Shown one piece after another: positions 12,675 through 41,974 of a stretch of DNA of 64,000 nucleotides. Position 1 is the first letter of the stretch. Each line of letters starts with the position of its first letter. The translations under genes were made by a program, and so were the position numbers. The stretch lies in assembly GCA_000231825.2 (NCBI GenBank), contig JH720300.1, positions 738,480 to 802,479 on the forward strand, written 5' to 3'. The notes beneath the pieces were generated by a model that did no database searches, had not been told where the DNA came from, and saw only the letters and a list, made by a program, of their open reading frames with translations. This stretch comes from Tetrahymena elliotti 4EA (lineage: Eukaryota; Ciliophora; Oligohymenophorea; Hymenostomatida; Tetrahymenidae).

Positions 12675-15600
12675 TCAAATAATGCTAGGATCTCCCAAAG
12701 GACTAGAAAATAAATTAAAAACTGTTATTTGATTGTTAGATGAAACTAAGATGAAGGGAGCTTCATTTATTTACTGTTCTTACTCTATAGAAGAATTATC
12801 TTTTCTAATTTTTTATTACTAGTCAAACACAAACAAATCTGTAATTTCTTGCTTTTCTCCAATTCTTCTTCTATCCAACTCTATACCATTATGAGCATCA
12901 TATAAACTCAGATATCCATCTTTATTAACAAAATTTAATTAATTTACTGCAAAAATTTTTTAATTTTACCCTAGTGACCAACAAAGATAATATCTCCTTT
13001 TTCATTTAAAGCAATCTTCTTAGGTAAGCTGACAAGTGCTATTTGTCTTACATTCTATTTATTTTATATTTTTTAAATGATTAGTTCAAATTTAAGATCT
13101 TGCTTTGAATTTTCTAAAACATAAAATGTCAATTTCTTATAAAATTTTTAAAAATTAAATAAAGGTTATTTACAATGTGCTCTCTGTAATTTCTAATTTG
13201 AATAAAATCTATCAGTGGAGAAATAACCAAGTACTCATCTTTTTCCTGTTTTGAAAAAATTGCTTGGCAGAATTAAACCTATTAATAGAAAGTTGTTGTT
13301 TATTGGATAATTTTAATTTAGTTCTAAAATATTCTTTTGTTATTTTAACAAAATGAACTTTTACTAGTAAGTAACAAAATAATTATCAATTGTTCGCAGA
13401 TTTTTGTGATTAGAAAAATACATAAATAAGCTTATATTTTTTCCTGTTGAAATATGATTTTACTTTTCACTACCCTTAAAAAAATTCTTATTTTCAACTT
13501 GGCCGATCATAAAATAGATGTTAAATAAATTAAAATATAATTTTTTACCTAGTTTAATTATTTGTTTTTGTAGGTCTGCAATTTGTAATTATCAATTAAA
13601 TAGTACTCCAATTCATATATTTTCATCAGTTCCTCTACAGGATTTTGCTTACGCTTTAAGCATTTACGGTTCCACACTTATATTTTTGAGTCTTATGTTG
13701 TTACAAGCCACGTAGATAGTGGATCATGTATAGAAATATCCATAAAATCAGAAGCGGACCCTATATTATCTGCTATTTTGTTAATTTGTATCAAAAATGG
13801 TTAAAGCTTTTCTACATGCAAGATGTAAATATCTCCCAACGAATTTGCAACAATAATATTTCTTGTTTATGGTAAAGCTCTTAGTGCGTTTATACTTAAA
13901 TTTAGTAAATTTGAGTCTCCTTTTTTGTTAAGCTTTTTATTTTCACCTGAATCATGAATAAAAGAAGATCCATAATTTTCGTAGCTAAGGTAATTATAGA
14001 ATCTAACAAATCCATCATTATAGCCACAAACAAGTATATTTAATTCATCCATCGTATCCATGCATAAACACTCCTTTTTGGGTGCATAAAATTCAGTTTT
14101 TTCCTCTATAGAGTCTAACTCCCAAATTTTTACTGTATAATCATTTGAAGAAGAAATTATAAGTCCATTATAGCCCACTCGAGGAACATACCTGCATGAT
14201 TTTATCAGCTTATCACTTTGATGAGTAGAAGATATTCTTAAAGTTGCATTATCTTCAAAGTCAACTAGCCACATAAGTCCACATTTACTTAACAACATAA
14301 TCCCCGACATAGCTATTTGCTAATCAAGCCCCTATCTAATCTCATCATCTCCCATACTTGAATAAGCTATAGGATATGAATCAAGAGTGTAAATCTAACT
14401 ATTTTAACTCACAGTAGTAGCCAATTTTTGTATGTCCGTAGCATTTAAATCTCCTAAATCAAATTGATAGACATTAACTGTATTACTTAGAATAATTAAA
14501 TTATTTTTTATAACTATTATTTCACTTATTCCTTAGTTGATTACTCCTTAGCACATGCATAGCATGCTGCCAGATCTTAAATCAAAAATGACAATGCATC
14601 CCTAAATTTTTTAAAAATTCCCTTAAACAAACTCATTTTCACTAAATTATTATTGATTTTTTTTAATTATGATTGATTCTGTTATTTAAATTTAAAGTTA
14701 TTTATTTGAGTTTAAAAGAAGAAGAATAATGAATGATGTGTTACAGATGATGTGCCAATAAGGGCTAGGTGTTTTTAGTTATTTTATATTGAAAGATAAT
14801 TCAATGAAACTAAATTTCCAGTGTTTTTATTTGTAAAGTCTGCTTGCTAGTACTCTAAGCTCATTCTAGAATTAAGTCTCCAGAATTAAAGACCATTTTT
14901 ATAAACAACTGCAAATTCTAAAGCTCCTAAGGTTACATTATTCCATTTAGTGCATACAAATGTATCATTTTCATCAATTGTGCTGCTTGAAACTAATCTA
15001 CCTGAAGCTAGTTCCCAAATATTAATCAGCTGAGCTCCATTTTTCACTATTTTTTCTTTTTTTTCTTCAACTTCATTTGCAACAAGTAGCTAAATTACTG
15101 ATAACAAATAATTAGAACAAGGAGATATTTAAATGCTCAGCAAATTGCACTCCTAAGGATGATATAACTCTTTAATTTGTGCATGAGAGTTTGAGTCATA
15201 AACTTTAATTGAAGATGCCTTTTAAGATTAAGTAACATAAAAATTAAATATTACTTGAAGGCTATTACAATTTCAAATTGAATTTTATGATAAAATTATA
15301 AGCTAAAACTAATAATTAATTTCAGCTTTTTAACATAACAATCTTTAAAATGAATTTTCAAAATTACTTTATTTTATAAAGTAGCAACATAATATCTACA
15401 GTTAGGGCTTATTTCTATTTTAGAAATAGGATATTCTAGTTAGGTTACTTTTTAGTCTCTATTTGGTGATTACATGTGAGATACAACTAAAAAGTTATTC
15501 ACAAATGTAACTAAGTAACGATTCTTTTGGTTCCAGATAAATTTTTCTTATGGAATACCTCCCTTTGTATTGAAACCAACAACACAATTGATATCTAAAT

Positions 15601-18600: not shown

Positions 18601-20035
18601 TTCCACTACTGTATAAAATACTACCACTACCAAAGCTGCATACATTTTTTTTCCCACCACAATAACCCTAATAAAAGATCATTGAAAGTCAATTTTAAAA
18701 ATTCAAAAAATTACATGAATATGTGATAGCCTCATAATGGGAGTAGGTTGAAGCTAAAAGCAATTTTCATAAACAATTGGCACAGTTTCTTTTTCTTATT
18801 CCTCAAAATCTTCTAAATCTTATTCTTGTTCTTGCTCAACAATTTTATGTTTATACTTATTTTTTAAAGAAGATTTTAGTCCATTTTAATTTGAAGAAGG
18901 GATTTTCAAGCTAACATCTTCAAATGAGCTGTTATTGTTTTCAGAATCATTATTTAATTCTTCTTATTCTATTTCATTTTATTCCTCTTATCCAGGTTCA
19001 ACAATCTGCACTTTCTTTTTTAAAATAGATTTTAAGTTCTCTTTACTCTTTTAAGGTTCAATGTATTTTTAGCTTTCAGTTTATTTAGGAGGTTCAAGCC
19101 TAGGAGGTCTTACATTGGCTTGACTTTAATTATTTTCATTCTATTAAACAGAGTGAGTAATAAATATCCATTAATATCTATCATAAAAAGTTTCATTTTT
19201 AGGAAGTATGAAGTGCATTTCTTTAGGCATATTTTCAACATTATATAAATTATTAGAAGTAAATAGACCTTTATACTTTGCATTTGCACATAGTTATATA
19301 CTTCTAATATAATAATCAATATTTGCATCTGTTATATTGGGTACTAATATTTATAAGTAGCTTTTAGAATCAATACAAACTATACCCCATTTATTTGGAA
19401 CTTCTGAAAAATTCACCTGCAATTCTTTGTCAGCTGATTTCTTTAAATTATTTTACATTTTAAATATTTCTCAGCTTGATAATGTTTTTTATATTTACCT
19501 TAACTTGCTTATAAAAATTAGAAAAAGATACTTTATATCTCTAGTTGTTTATAGAATAAATTATATGAAAAGCGAACACACTACCAGCAGGTACTTGCAT
19601 TTGTATATATATCTTATTTTTAATAATAATTTAATATCCATTCTTTCAAATATGCTTTTATAAATATCTTACATAATTTCCTATTAATTAAAGAGATGAT
19701 ATTTCTGCTGATTATCCTGGAATTGTTATATTATTTTGTGTTGAAACTTGTCCTTCAATTTTCAAAATCTTTCTTGAAACATCTTTATCCTTTTTAAAAT
19801 AATTTTGTTAAATTTTCAATTCTTTCCATCTAATTATGGCTTTTATAATAATGCTTAAAACTTATTCTTCATTAGCTATTCGAAGTTAATTTTATTGTAT
19901 TCATATTTTTAATCTATTTACCATAGCAACAGTAATTCTTCCCTTTTTTTCTATATTCTTCAAATCAAGAACCTTAAAGTGCTTGAATACATCTACGAAT
20001 GGATTTTACCAATAAAGATTAGGCTTCATTTACAT
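12675..20035 (-). CDS. POC16: WDR90/POC16 orthologue: DUF667 domain plus WD40 repeats
   Basis: WDR90/POC16 is a microtubule-associated protein of the centriole/basal-body inner scaffold. Here the start MQMKPNLYWQNPFVDVFKHF matches the family opening (HPFLNVFRHF). The rest of the CFAP20-like DUF667 domain follows across three introns: GRITVAM/DKDVSRKILKIEG, GNY/IYIQMQVPAGSVFAFH, YKVSFSNFYKQVK, IRSIQLCANAKYKGLFTS and PKEMHFILPKNETFYDRYQW. An acidic Q/E linker precedes many WD40 units, e.g. NGKIKVWKMD, ISQDFSIRIWDLM, SNDYTVKIWELD and GHQDGYLSLYDAHNG at the C-terminus. About 15 introns, most 40-110 nt; the longest is 17764-18307 (544 nt). Roughly 1,900 residues, comparable with human WDR90. TGA stop at 12675-12677. 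An in-frame ATG six bases downstream is an alternative start. Two genes split at the 544-nt intron is less likely because phase and fold continue. Confidence 0.9.
17764..18307 (-). other. 544-nt intron in POC16
   Basis: The minus-strand donor follows MIIKGDQ and the acceptor precedes VIVKNLSNFDIVKLGF, phase 0. The interior is almost pure A/T with no coding texture. It is much longer than the other introns of the gene. Confidence 0.7.
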
Positions 20036-35238: not shown

Positions 35239-38200
35239 TCAATATTTTTTAGGTGAATATGAATTGTTAAACTTTTAATGTCCTTATGGTTTTGTTTATT
35301 GATTAAATCCAGAAAAAAAGTTTTAATTTGGAAGTTAAAGATAGTTTTTGTTATAATTAATCTAATTGGATTATTGGGGATTTTATTAAATAATAGGTGA
35401 AAACTGAGGAGGGTATTACTAATATTATTGTGGGATCTAGTATGGATATTGTTAAAATGACTATGGGGATCTGTTGAAAGATTCTGGAGATTATTGATAG
35501 GAGTTTGATAGTTATTTAAATGAATTTGGAGAATACTGAGGAGATGGTAAAGATTGCATTTAGTTTGAAATTACTTCTTAGTTATTGATAGGATTATAAC
35601 AATTTATGTCTTATAAGGTTTTATTAATTCTTGATCTTATTGATTCATTGAATTAGATTGAATTATTTTAACTAAGCCTTTAACAAAGCAGTATATGAAT
35701 GTAATAAAACTGGTTAAATTACTTTTTGTTAATAATTTTTTCATATGAGTCTTTTTTTTGTTATTTGAAAAGAAGATCATCAGAGTTGTTAAGATCTAAA
35801 TAATATTCAATTTGTTTAAGATCTTCTTCTTAAATTAGTTTATCTACTAACTATTAAATAGTTATATTTGATCCTTGGTTGCTATACACATATTCATCTT
35901 TTGTTTTTGGCTCATGCTTAATATTATCAAAGAATATTTTAAGCATGCTCTTTTAAAAAGTACTATCTTTAGCTTAGTTTAACTAAATTTCTTAGATATC
36001 TTTGTATTCAAACTCTACAAAATTTATCTATTTAATTACTTAGAGTGGTAAGATGCAAATTCTCACAATCTTACCTGTATAAATCTACTATAAAACCCTT
36101 ATCTAATTCATAAAGTGTTCTTGGTAATCAACTAAGATCTTATAATAAACATCCTATCCTGTGAATTTCCAGTCAAAAATTAATGCCTCTTTTTCATTTT
36201 CTGCAACCATATCATACCTTTTTTTCTCTCCTTCACTACTGAATTCTTACTCAACTCCAGTTACTTTCATCCCTCTTATTGTAATATAATCTTAAACCAC
36301 TCTAACATAATGCTTTAGAAAATTTTGCTAATCTTCAGTCAAAGAATTACAGCTTTTCAACATGTTCTAATTATTTCTGAATAAATTTGCAACATATCTA
36401 TGAATTTCAATTCCTTTTTCTTTTTTCATTTTGATTAATTTATTTTCTTTAGAAAATACATCTTTCTTTATTTCAGAAGAAGGATTTAAAATGTATTTCA
36501 GATAAAAAATAGAGCACAACCTATTTTTCTAAAATCCTTATTTTTCTAACTCCTCAATTGGCTAATTTATTATGATAACCTAATCATTTAGCTATCTAGT
36601 AAGCTTTACTACATTTTTATCCTCTTCCTCTTTTTAAGTTTATAAACTACTTTTTATTAAATTTTTTTAAAAAAATATAATTTATAAAAAATTTAATTAA
36701 ATTTCTTAAAAAATTACTCTTGATTTGATACATCCATTATTATTTTTTCATTCATAATATCTTAAAAAGGCTTCTTCTGTGATTAGTTTTAATCATGCTC
36801 TAGCTATTATTACATTATATCTTATTTGTTTTCATATTTATCAGATGATATTTATTGATACTATTAGATATTTTTATTTTAATTATTATTAAAAATATTA
36901 AAATTATCATCCTTATTAAATAATACGATATTTTTTTCTGAGCTCCTTTTTTTATAAAAAGGTTTTTCTGAGAATAAGTCATTTTTTTAAAAGTTTTGAA
37001 TTTAACAATCATTCTATTGTAATCTATAGCCATAATTATTCTAATCATTTTCTTCTCCTTAACTATTTAATTTAGGAGGGTTTAACTCTTATCCAATATC
37101 TTTTTAAAGGTAATCATTTTTATCAAATATATTAAGATTTGAAGTTTTATTATAAAAAGTAATATTCTTTTTTTATAAATTGTTCCCAATAATATCAATT
37201 TAATTACTGTTAAATTAGTTTTGATATTATTAACTATTTTTATCTCCATTTTATTATCTTTACTCTTCCTTATTAAAGTTATTCTGTTGTTAAATTTTGT
37301 TGTAATTATGAGGAGATCTCTCACTTTAAGAAACATCATTTAAAGCTTTATTATTAAATATGTTTATATTTTTATTTCTATCAAAGAATACAACATTCCT
37401 TCCTCTGTTATTTTAATCATAAAAATTGATTTTTTAATTTTAATTTCTAGCTTCATAAAATAATCCATCTTAATTTTTAGAAGAATAAGGTTCTCTTTCC
37501 AGATTCAATTTATTAGGAATTATTTCATTTTAGTATTCATCTCTTTTGCTGGGATAATTATCAAATATGTTAAAATTATTTTTTCTATCAAAAATAACTA
37601 TCTTCTTATCTCTATTTAAATCAAAATACATTAAAATATGTATGATCTCAAATTAATAAATTTAAATTACTTTTTCATTGAATCATTTTAGAATAGACCT
37701 TCTTCATTAACAATTCTTTTTTTATTACAACTTTCAAGTAATTAGAAATCATCAGGGTATTCTTCATGATTTAAATTTTCAATTCTTCTTTTTGAATTTA
37801 GATTGCCTAATGTTAGTTTCTGATTAGATTTACTTTTTTTAAAAAAAAATTATTTATTTAATCTAAATTCAATTAAATATTACTCTAAACGCCTTTAATT
37901 TAAAATATTATCTTCTTAAATTAATTCATGACCAATTTAATTGCTCTAATTCTTAGAATTTTATTAATTTTATGGTTTATAAGGACTTTACACCAATTTT
38001 TTTTCAGATAAAACACTTTATGAAGGATGTGAATTCTAATTATCTTTTAAATTACAATTCTTTTCATCAAAGCCAATAGTGTTATTATTTTTACCAAATT
38101 AAATAATTGAGTACATTTTATTTTAGATATTTAATTAACTTTATTTCTAAAATTTTTCTTATTCAATTTTTTATAACTCTTCTGGTTTATAAAAGTAAGG

Positions 38201-38590
38201 TCTTTATGAAGAATTTTCAGCTTAGTTTTTTTAAACAAATATTTCTTGTTCATTATTTTAGTTCTAATTCTAAGGAATTAGGCATTAATTATCATTTAGC
38301 TATTATTTTTCTTTTATTTAACTTGAGTTTGGTTAATTCTAGCTACTTTGAAAAACTTATTGTTATTTTTCTATTCTTTATCCTTATTTGTCCTAAGAAA
38401 TTGCAATCTATTCTAGTTTTTCTTAAGTTTTGAATAGATTTTAGCAATAATTAAATTATTATTCAAATTCTTCTCCACTTAAATTAGAGAGTAATTTGAT
38501 TTGAGATTCTATCTTACTTTTTATTTATTAAAGATTTAACATTTGCGAATTTAAACAAAATTAATTAATTATAAATATTATCTTATTCAT
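35239..38590 (-). CDS. RecB-like PD-(D/E)XK nuclease-domain protein, Q-rich, 1074 aa
   Basis: Exons 37671-38590, 36718-37611 and 35239-36649 join in phase to 1075 codons. Residues ~1-600 are Q/N-rich with a repeated motif ending N-I-F-[DN] (separate entry). Residues ~684-800 match the RecB/Cas4/Dna2-type PD-(D/E)XK layout: EKGIEIHRYVANLF (the G-x-x-x-H helix), GVEQEFSSEG (the Glu strand), RYDMVAENEKEALIFDWKFT (Asp, then D-x-K) and QIRVLQQIYTGKIVRICIL (the QxxxY-like helix). All metal-binding and catalytic positions appear filled, so it may cut DNA. The C-terminal ~120 residues are P/Q/Y-rich (QSFQQYPYQIPQQYQQYPPQ) and probably disordered. A paralogue lies just upstream on the same strand. Start chosen at the first in-frame ATG; Met17 (38542) is an alternative. 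Substrate unknown. Confidence 0.75.
36900..37611 (-). repeat. Four-copy ~16-residue protein repeat in the nuclease gene
   Basis: Within exon 2 four segments share one pattern: KIVIFDRKNNFNIFDN, NVVFFDRNKNINIFNN, NITFYNKTSNLNIFDK and NIVLFNKDDNFNIFNN. Consensus: [NK]-I/V-V-x-F-[DN]-[RK]-x-x-N-[FIL]-N-I-F-[DN]. The copies are separated by 60-100 residues of Q/N-rich linker. Regularly spaced short linear motifs of this sort usually bind a partner protein. A looser relative (SIIQFGKNNNTIGFDEKN) occurs in exon 1. Confidence 0.75.
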
Positions 38591-39239
38591 TTTTAAGGCC
38601 TTCTTTAATAAAATAAAAACAAATAAATAAAATTCTTTTATCTCAAAATTATTTCTATTTCAAATAGCCATTATTTAAGTTAAATTCATAATTTAATTGA
38701 AGATTCTTAAGATATTTCTAAATAGACGATAAAAAGATCATAAATTAAATAAATTTTTTTGCGTAAATAATACAAAATTAAAATCCTAAGATAAGGTAAT
38801 TAAAATTTAGCAATTCTTATTAAAATTTAATTTTGAAGTAAATTAAAATTGAAAATAAGAAACTTTCTTATTAAAAAAATTTACTAGCCCCTAATTCTTA
38901 ATTAATGAGCTTTTACAGTACTATTTAACTTTTCACAAATTTATTCTGATTTTTTAAAAATTAGAATACCAGACAGACTACATAAAATAAATTTCAAAAC
39001 ATTTTTAAAATAGAGAGTATGAAAAAAAGTAATTATGAAACTTCTGAATCAAAAGATACATGTAGACAGAGGCTCTAATTGTTAATTAAGTATCAAAATA
39101 TATCTAAATCATAAAATTATTACTTCATTAAGGTAAATTTAAATTTAGAGATTTTAAGTATGCAAATTAAAAATTAAGAATGACTAAAATAAGTATTTAT
39201 AAAAACCAGAGATAAATTATTTTTGAAGGATTAAAAATA
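38591..39239. other. Spacer between tandem paralogues
   Basis: 649 bp between the start of the nuclease gene and the stop of its upstream paralogue, both on the minus strand. It is A/T-rich with no coding signal and presumably holds the promoter of the 35239-38590 gene. Confidence 0.6.
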
Positions 39240-41974
39240 TCAATAATAATTATTATTATTTGGGTATCTTTTGTATGGCTTATAATAGAATTAATTTTAA
39301 TTTTGATTATATTAGTAGTTATTTTACCTAAAGTTTACATTTTATTAGTTCCAATTTTATTGCATTTATTAACTATTCAACATACTTGGTAAGTAATTTT
39401 AATTTAAATTTTATTAAGATTAGTTCTTCTCATTCACTACATTAATTATTTTTTTTGCTGATTGTTAAAATTCTTAATTTAAATTCAATTATTAAGGTAA
39501 ATGTTATAAATTTTACTAAATTATTATTTGTTAGCATAGCATGATATGTATGTGATAGAAGATTTTTAATTTTTCTACTCTTTAATTGTTAGCTTTTTCA
39601 TCTTAGATTAAATGTTTATCTAGTAATCCATCTGTATTTTTGAGATTAAGGTACTTTGATATAAGTTGAATGTTATTATTTTAAATGATATTATTCACAA
39701 ATTATTAAAGGTTAATCTACTTCCCATTGAGTTCTTCAGTATTTTCTTAGGTAAAATTAAAAAAATTTTTATCCCTTAAAAACCAAGAAATCAAGCTGTT
39801 ACTAAATTTTGAGTCATTTTTTTATCTTTGATAATAGGTTTTTATCTCATCTTCTTCAAATTCACAAAATTAAATTTATTTTATTTCTCTTAATTGTAAG
39901 ATACAAACTCTAACTTTCTTTTATTTGTAAAGGCCTTCCTACTCTTATTGCTTATTTTTTATTAGTTTTAAGTATTAGCCTTCGTAATCAACTAGTATTT
40001 TATATTCTGGAGGTCCTTTTCTCATTAAGAATTCTGTTATCAATATTTCCTTTTAGTTACTTGAAAATACCAGCAAACTATTCATCTTATTTTCTCTACT
40101 TTAATATACTATTTCATCAATATACATTTCTCTTATGTTCAAATAATCTTTAAAAACTTTGGAATATTGAGAAAGGTATTTCTATTCATTATTTGTGATT
40201 AGAAAACTTTACGTTTTTTCTTGATTTAATATACAAGCTGCAGTGTACTCAAAAATATTTTTTTCGATACGTTCTTCACAATATTTCTTATATTTATATT
40301 CAAGAATATTTGGAATAATTTCATCAAGCTTATAGTTTGGTAAATTATATTTTAAGCAATAAATTTAAAAATCTAAAAATTTATCTTCTAAGAACCCTTT
40401 TTTGTTCAGCTCATTTTTGCTGGAGTTTATGATGATAGAATCTGATTATTCTCTCTTTAGGTATATTTTATTCTGTTAAAATCTATTTAGTTTTTTAAAT
40501 TTTAAATAAATAAATGATTTAATAAAATGAAGAGTAAAAGAAAATGATTTTTTAACCAACCTATTTTGTTATAAGATGTCATCTATCTATCATTTCAATA
40601 AATAAATCAGTCTCATAATTAGGTTAAAAAATATTTAGTTAAGATTGTTTTCTTAATCGAATCAATATAATTAATTAGTCTCATAAAAAGGTAAAAAATA
40701 TTTATTTACTAATCTCTGCTGTAAGAGTCTTATGTTTTTTCCGTAAAATAATTAACATTTGGACAAATTTTTTTTTATGGAGTATCCATTGTATTGTACT
40801 ACTTTTAAAAGAATATTATATTCTTATTTTAAATATCTTCCATCTAGCTTTAAGCTCTTTTCTAGTTGATGTTTAGCCATTTTTAATCTTCATTTTATGC
40901 AAGATGACCTTAAGGCTTGGAGTTTTTAATTTAACTTTCTTTTAATGTTAGCTTTTCTAAAAGTTCAAATAAAGTTTATTCATTTTAATTTATTTATTTT
41001 TAAATTTCTTCTCTTGATTATTAGTCTAAGTCATGAATTCTGCTGTTTTTAAAATTAAGAGATTCATTTATTTCAGATAACTACTATATTTCTAATTGCA
41101 ATTTGTTAATTTCTGAAGACAGATCATCAAAATGATCATTTAAATCTCTTTGTGTTTAAGTTTCTTCAAATTCATTATCCTCCTTATTATTATCAAATTT
41201 TTTGGGTTACTTTTAGGATAATTGAGATTTTATTTCACTTTCTTCTTTGTAAATGTTGATTGGTTTATCAAATATCTAACTCATTTTTGAAGGATAATTC
41301 ATCTGATTTTAAAGTTGTATCTGATTTTATGAATCATTTAGGGATTGTCTTTCTTAATCCGGCTAATAACTTAAAGATATTATTTAAGCTTTCTTTAACT
41401 CTATGTCATCTTGAATTTCAAGTAATTTATCTTAGTCATTTTTATTAATATTTTATTTTTCTCTCTCTAGCTTTTATAGATCTTCTTCAAGCTTTCTGAT
41501 TTATTATTCTATTTATTTTATAGTAGCAGGCTGACTAGTTTCCATAGAAATTTAAGATTTAATATTGGTTTCATATAAAACATTATTTGATTATTTTTCT
41601 ACTTCACAATTATTTTGATACTGCTATTAACAATATTAATAATATGGTTCCTTAATATCTTCATATCTCACATTTTAGAAACCAAGTGTTTGTTGGTTTT
41701 AATATACACTCTGAGAACTGATTTGATCTGGCATCATATTCTCTTTAATTGGTGTTGGTGGAATTGTTTTAGTTGATTCATTTTAATCATTATTTTTTAC
41801 ATTATTTTAATTAGAAGCAATATTACTACCATCTTTAAGCAAAAGCTATTTCTGCATTAAATATGTTTCATGATTTTTCAAAAGTTTATCTAATTTAGGT
41901 TGATCAGTTTCTTTTTCAATTTATTTTTAACAATTTTAAATTTCTAACTCTAATTACTAAATCTAAATTTCCAT
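39240..41974 (-). CDS. Paralogue of the PD-(D/E)XK gene with degenerate active site, 835 aa
   Basis: Exons 40710-41974 and 39240-40482 join in phase (836 codons). The N-terminal 420 residues are Q-rich with coiled-coil segments (IRKLEEDLQKLEREKQNIN). The C-terminal half aligns along its length with the neighbouring gene: YLKREQSDSIIINSSKNEL with KLTRQLNDQVIIINQPIEEL, YKILVDYEGQYLKLI with YKILVDYQEHFMNQI, KVRVCILQLREIKQIQFCEFE with KIVRICILPLQVIKQINFVEFE, and FYHIHIMLCQQ with FYYIHILLCQR. At the nuclease core, however, RYDMV is replaced by KMNSL and IFDWKFT by ITEFLMR, so the Asp and D-x-K are gone. The G-x-x-x-H helix is also lost. It looks like a pseudo-nuclease that keeps the fold, perhaps a regulator or scaffold. 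The C-terminus is N/Q/Y-rich. Confidence 0.75.
40483..40709 (-). other. 227-nt intron of the pseudo-nuclease gene, with Cbs-like 15-mer
   Basis: GT..AG on the minus strand, phase 2. On the plus strand, 40552-40566 reads ttaaccaacctattt, matching 13 of 15 positions of the Tetrahymena chromosome breakage sequence TAAACCAACCTCTTT. A partly duplicated segment around the donor (agtctcata...aggt[t]aaaaaatattta at about 40607-40640 and 40676-40707) is also present. Confidence 0.6.

Follow-up and report, generated by a model that had tools for sequence, protein, structure and literature searches.

A 64,000-nucleotide stretch of contig JH720300.1 of the ciliate Tetrahymena elliotti 4EA (hereafter the window; the contig is C8 in the genome searched) carries two neighbouring genes, A and B, whose predicted products share a C-terminal domain with the residue pattern of RecB-like nucleases of the PD-(D/E)XK superfamily, the pattern being intact in B and eroded in A. 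A preliminary description of this DNA had placed two adjacent minus-strand genes at 35239..41974, and these boundaries are indeed the TGA of B and the ATG of A, respectively. The window (22.7% guanine plus cytosine) is read in the ciliate genetic code, in which TAA and TAG encode glutamine: its open reading frames of at least 150 residues number 0 under translation table 11 vs 114 under table 6. The genome searched comprises 89.95 Mb in 134 contigs. One end of contig C15 carries GGGGTT, the Tetrahymena telomere repeat (one of four readable ends; six were taken and two were masked), and because of these repeats the assembly is probably macronuclear. A telomerase fragment of this genome agrees with PDB chain 6d6v_A, from T. 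thermophila, at 129/136 positions, which puts the genome near T. thermophila though probably outside that species. The two genes are as follows.

39240..41974, minus strand: gene A, predicted pseudonuclease of 835 residues; exons 41974-40710 and 40482-39240, intron 40709-40483 (227 bp)
35239..38590, minus strand: gene B, predicted RecB-like nuclease of 1074 residues; exons 38590-37671, 37611-36718 and 36649-35239, introns of 59 and 68 bp

The splice sites of both genes were set by inspection; all introns are of the GT...AG type and the exons join in phase. The frame of A is uninterrupted across its 835 codons, and a run of 453 codons without TGA has a chance of ~1.4e-4 at this composition. Additionally, the first exon of A has the top coding score among the 22 segments listed, the training set having included the exons of A and B. 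The N-terminal arms of both proteins are rich in glutamine and asparagine (Gln/Asn-rich) and show no convincing mutual alignment; the shared part lies downstream.

39504..40460, minus strand: C-terminal domain of A, residues ~430-748, predicted PD-(D/E)XK homologue lacking the catalytic residues, with the C-terminal extension; 33% identity to B over 290 positions
35608..36555, minus strand: C-terminal domain of B, residues ~637-952, predicted PD-(D/E)XK core (sequence alignment; AlphaFold2 core order at low confidence), then an extension of ~110 residues common to six genes

These domains are homologous. A two-sequence BLASTP comparison of A with B gives 85 bits and an E value of 8e-21 (79/240 positions identical), and the A fragment used as query retrieves B genome-wide at E 2.9e-22. 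The shared half had been put at ~350 residues; its homology is borne out, but its length comes down to the 290 aligned positions of the whole C-terminal region. Within it, the stretches around the two predicted catalytic aspartates of B and their counterparts in A are the following.

36172..36213, minus strand: B stretch with both Asp codons, D751 (36213-36211, GAT) and D764 (36174-36172, GAC)
40032..40079, minus strand: counterpart stretch of A, with Ser557 (40079-40077, AGT) and Glu572 (40034-40032, GAA)

The motif residues of B stand in RecB-like order (H688, E738, D751, D764-W-K766 and Q787), just as the preliminary description had proposed. An active PD-(D/E)XK enzyme requires Asp...Asp/Glu-x-Lys; this arrangement is present in B, in four further genes of the same genome (C, D, E and F) and in one relative from Tetrahymena utriculariae—six sequences, 20-51% identical in pairs, that we call active-type—and it fails in A, which has Ser557 followed by Glu572-Phe-Leu574. 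In detail, A has S557 at the first Asp, E572-F-L574 at D-W-K, L595 at the Gln and, at the His column, E495 in the seven-way alignment or Phe in the two-way alignment. The His, the Asp, the D-W-K and the Gln are retained in five of the six family genes and lost in A alone. The motif Ia His (H688 in B) is invariant across the six active-type sequences; the motif I Glu (E738 in B) is kept by every active-type sequence but D, where Gly takes its place, and is replaced by Asp in A. The spacing from Asp to Asp is 13 in B and F and 15 in C, D and E.

The losses in A are concentrated. The seven-sequence alignment has 11 columns that do not vary among the active-type sequences, seven of them in or beside the active site (the His; the Asp; the Asp, Trp and Lys of D-W-K; and the His and Gln of the next helix) and four non-catalytic (Tyr, Ile, Leu and Glu, the Ile sitting two residues ahead of D-W-K). 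A has changed 7/7 of the former and kept 4/4 of the latter, which random losses would produce with a chance of 1 in 330; these column classes were named post hoc, and the Trp and second His border on catalytic residues without being proven as such. Among the five active-type genes of T. elliotti itself, 16 columns are invariant; A again lacks those seven, along with two of the remaining nine (chance 0.003). As a leave-one-out control, each active-type gene departs from 2-8 of the 18-24 columns that the remaining four share, and from none of the seven active-site columns. Past the active site, in the strand region, A is identical to B at 16/30 residues. The original statement that A lacks the catalytic residues thus stands for most of them, with all seven active-site columns changed, but goes too far where acids are concerned, one being kept at the motif I column (Asp) and one in D-x-K (Glu).

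Genome-wide searches with the domains of all six members converge on six genes, a lower bound in that the search scored the best candidates only.

C8, minus strand: members A and B, the tandem pair in the window
C21:1277394-1278200: member C, from the genome search (the longer stretch that includes its arm is L010:2074-4722)
C36:85762-86547: member D, from the genome search
C15:1206705-1207682 (L024:3206-4183), plus strand: member E, of the second tandem pair, intact active site
C15:1209809-1210873 (to 1210876 as L024:6310-7377), plus strand: member F, of the second tandem pair, intact active site

The T. utriculariae relative, ABPG72_007115 (P0011, 351 residues), is 51% identical to C over 154 positions; it ends early, within the C-terminal extension, and is perhaps a truncated gene model. 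In F, an insertion of ~37 residues separates the motif I Glu from the first Asp. Gene C lies ~5.5 kb from a contig end, the last 600 bases of which contain no telomere repeat.

In a midpoint-rooted tree of the seven sequences, A and B are sisters (support 100/99), and E groups with F (79/92). Judged by these sequences, the simplest reading is that A lost its active site after a tandem duplication. The active/inactive pair first described therefore holds for A and B but is not isolated, being one of two tandem pairs; because the E/F pair kept both sites, the pairing of an active with a dead copy is evidently not a rule of the family, one member of which appears to have decayed.

What we tentatively favour, at a little short of an even chance, is that B is a RecB/MGME1-like nuclease and that A is a tandem duplicate kept as a pseudonuclease that binds nucleic acid, B or both. 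B would catalyse metal-dependent DNA hydrolysis at D751, D764 and K766, its domain being carried on a long Gln/Asn-rich arm. A would be a tandem duplicate of the B lineage that lost the active site while retaining the scaffold and the C-terminal extension, and by binding nucleic acid, B or both without cutting it would position or restrain the cutting subunit; the arms may serve in recruitment. The components of this proposal differ in strength. That the B domain is a PD-(D/E)XK nuclease is very probable, and A is in all likelihood unable to cut by the mechanism of the family; that A works through B is a plausible step of which we are somewhat less confident than of the proposal as a whole. 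The sequences show the homology, the family size as found, the loss of catalytic residues in A only and an intact reading frame; catalysis by B, the fold of A, any contact between the two and the pathway that they serve go beyond this. Because both sites of the second tandem pair are preserved, a non-catalytic partnership of A with B is likewise one that we infer.

The preliminary description knew of no named eukaryotic system to match an active/inactive nuclease pair with long Gln/Asn-rich arms; the residue pattern, however, does have a eukaryotic match in human MGME1, a mitochondrial RecB-type exonuclease. Like B, MGME1 has the order His-Glu-Asp-Asp-x-Lys-Gln-hydrophobic and a 13-residue spacing between its aspartates (D238 and D251), a value that F also shares, and it has no helicase. 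Unlike MGME1, B lacks a match to the PDDEXK_1 profile and a motif IV Tyr, and has the long Gln/Asn-rich arm and the C-terminal extension of ~110 residues.

A number of results weigh against the proposal of a nuclease B with a retained pseudonuclease A. Within the family, D lacks the motif I Glu, and C, D and E, with their spacing of 15, differ from MGME1. Motif IV is defined as QhXXY for the RecB-type group (PMC6237815); its Gln and hydrophobic residue are present and its Tyr is absent in all six active-type sequences (QIRVL in B; also QILAT, QIKAI, QLFEA, QIQEV and QIIAT). Because this Tyr is absent family-wide, we do not file B as a strict RecB-type member; the sequences point to a family that is PD-(D/E)XK-like and probably works like RecB-type members. 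Acidic residues persist in A, in the motif I Glu column and in place of the D of D-x-K. Its terminal branch (2.05) is about twice that of B (0.97), as relaxed constraint would also yield, and the intact E/F pair indicates that the family does not require a dead partner.

Profile searches add to this side. Pfam gives nothing above cut-off for the domains of the six members, three B exon frames and the T. utriculariae protein, the first exon of A lying outside the scan; rows below cut-off, the best being CdiI_3 (0.0099, in D) and Zn_ribbon_DnaG (0.049, in A), were set aside. A phage-exonuclease profile, which together with the weak structural matches of the B model is what supports a nuclease, matches member C only (E 1.7e-5); neither the other five members nor the T. 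utriculariae relative repeat the match. Sequence searches of the PDB bring up nothing related by name, the best E being 0.012. Against 5.8 billion proteins, the B fragment has 0 matches, with length limits that leave out full-length A- or B-like proteins, and the six-member profile has one; a search there with full-length A, limited in scoring to its domain, has 0, though full-length A- or B-like T. utriculariae proteins were within its reach. These protein-database negatives carry no conclusion on absence in sister species. PADLOC and NCBIfam, run on A-D (4/6 members), yield no accepted match; the PADLOC rows, BilC at E 0.0085 and a pair of Cas4 models at 0.29 and 1.5, each come from a single member and were treated as too weak, and the NCBIfam rows (best 0.024) were set aside. 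PDDEXK_1 (PF12705) has 0 matches in the genome, its control being positive in 12/14 genomes, and none in the member domains either. Neither Dna2 (PF08696) nor a helicase is matched in the B pieces, the sole Dna2 match of the genome being a separate locus on C14. EXO5 (PF09810) has 0 genome matches, with a control that matched in 1/14 genomes and nowhere over cut-off, so that its sensitivity is unproven.

Structure prediction, suggested earlier as a check, gives the core order a-b-b-b-a-b in the AlphaFold2 model of B at low confidence, with a mean predicted local distance difference test (pLDDT) score of 52.6 for B and 47.1 for A. Foldseek returns 585 matches to the B model at E <= 10 and 0 at E <= 0.001, with the Wolbachia CinA-CinB complex at the top, the Cas4-family protein SSO0001 second and a mixed ranking after that. 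The VIA list for B has Cas4-family, Dna2 and Hjc nucleases among its weak matches, and unrelated helical chains stand at similar Z (7wb4 at 5.1). For A, no nuclease was noticed in the 50 rows of a pre-filtered VIA list, obtained with a poor model, an absence with which the fold is still compatible.

Iron-sulphur nucleases of the Cas4, AddB and Dna2 kind have four conserved cysteines. B resembles them in its RecB-like motif order, and its predicted structure has some of its best, if weak, matches in a Cas4-family protein and in Dna2; the B family differs in having no recognised helicase domain and no conserved iron-sulphur-cluster cysteines, none of the 16 columns that the five active-type genes of T. 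elliotti share without variation being a Cys. In RecB-RecC, XPF-ERCC1 and MUS81-EME1, an active nuclease is joined to a related subunit without an active site. A and B would likewise be a dead and an active relative, in a putative partnership; unlike in those complexes, no helicase or helix-hairpin-helix is recognised in the B pieces or the member domains, and A and B seem to stem from a duplication inside a single family. A further parallel is TP1, the nucleocapsid protein of virus TTV1, which is reported to be a Cas4 nuclease descendant that has lost some catalytic residues (PMC4625639). A shares with TP1 probable descent from a nuclease of the same superfamily and the loss of catalytic residues, and differs in being a cellular gene, TP1 being viral, encoded by a split gene and employed in a capsid. 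Dead nuclease paralogues paired with active ones are already known elsewhere; the six-gene family itself is without an accepted match in the libraries searched.

Of the alternatives, the one that survives best, unlikely as we judge it, holds that A is a drifting duplicate, a copy left without activity or nuclease-linked role by birth and death in a tandem family. The excess of its branch over that of B accords with this, as does an intact E/F pair that demands no dead partner; moreover, species-specific Tetrahymena genes are reported to be often tandemly duplicated and fast-evolving (PMC6564038). However, a long branch alone is no proof of lost constraint, because E has kept its site and yet has a longer terminal branch than A (2.34 vs 2.05; that of D is 1.65). 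The drifting copy is also hard to square with a frame open over 835 codons with introns in phase, or with the 4/4 (or 7/9) invariant columns that A keeps outside the active site and the 16/30 B-identical residues after it. Somewhat less likely again is the recruitment of A to a separate, B-independent job such as packaging or binding nucleic acid. The passage from Cas4 to the TP1 nucleocapsid after catalytic loss sets a precedent (PMC4625639), and the arm of A, apparently coiled-coil-like by sequence, differs from that of B; yet nothing points positively to such a job, a domain in the first exon of A, outside the Pfam scan, being possible.

Far less probable is an elaboration of the proposal in which A and B would be an obligate cutter/guide heterodimer evolved within Tetrahymena, its dead subunit reading DNA and its Gln/Asn-rich arms gathering the complex where programmed chromosome breakage or DNA elimination takes place. 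We likewise regard it as highly improbable that A still cuts through a rearranged active site composed of Glu572 standing in for Asp, the Asp of the motif I column and a Lys from a neighbouring position. Active-site rearrangements do occur in the PD-(D/E)XK superfamily, which also allows Asp to become Glu at the second acid, and the motif I column Asp is kept; nevertheless, the first Asp has become Ser, the Lys and the Gln have both become Leu and the His is lost. Least credible of all is a chance motif in a domain that is no PD-(D/E)XK nuclease, an idea that fits the want of accepted Pfam or PDB sequence matches and of Foldseek matches at E <= 0.001 and the low-confidence models, but not seven columns in or beside the motif invariant across six sequences of 20-51% identity, the phage-exonuclease match of member C or the several PD-(D/E)XK nucleases in the structural list for B.

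As to origins, member C as query matches nothing in phage records; the six-member alignment gives 132 pattern matches in viral contigs and member C gives 102 in prokaryote contigs, 0 of either being confirmed. At the sensitivity used, these sequence searches found no prokaryotic or viral donor. A mobile-element origin was dropped, six divergent genes having been found, each at one place (the counts being lower bounds). Titles and abstract openings of the literature matches listed contain no description of the six-gene family, and a Paramecium nuclease that stems from a glutathione transferase (PMC9865852) was set aside as unrelated. The databases searched do not list the six-gene family.

The arms have features of their own. 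That of A appears rich in coiled-coil-like helices, unlike that of B, as judged from sequence. The arm of B contains a repeated motif.

36870..37610, minus strand: N-terminal arm segment of B with four copies of a motif of ~17 residues (KKIVIFDRKNNFNIFDN type), in segments beginning at residues 306, 375, 451 and 529; identified by motif count vs shuffles

The KKIVIFDRKNNFNIFDN-type pattern, derived from these same copies, has four matches in the B arm vs 0.11 expected, and 0/2000 shuffles reach four. The exon frame that carries it, used as a genome-wide query, is found at no second place; A and C have one match each, equalled by 110 and 185 of 2000 shuffles and not significant. An N-terminal helical hairpin common to A, B, D and F was rejected as weak and post hoc, 2/15 pairs being reached by fewer than 10/500 shuffles. 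Acidic hydrophobic stretches resembling SUMO-interacting motifs occur five times in the C arm vs 0.28 expected (0/2000 shuffles, under a definition chosen post hoc), and stricter SUMO-interacting patterns are not significantly enriched there. The T. utriculariae relative has one such stretch near its start, which 195/2000 shuffles match, and A and B show no enrichment of SUMO-interacting motifs.

Elsewhere in the window, two further domain matches were recorded.

13540-14712, minus strand: WD40/beta-propeller fragment; Pfam WD40, 29.9 bits vs a cut-off of 27
18763-19470, minus strand: weak CFA20 domain match; E 0.0057, 16.8 bits, below the cut-off of 24

At every mating Tetrahymena excises and throws out a large part of its germline DNA, and to our knowledge the nucleases that trim and repair DNA during this elimination are incompletely known. 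Six RecB-like genes, with a natural dead-site paralogue beside its active sister, offer concrete targets for knock-out and biochemistry, and the family provides a case in which the loss of an active site can be timed against intact paralogues. Should the family consist of housekeeping repair enzymes, the result would be modest; it would be larger if the pair works in genome rearrangement.

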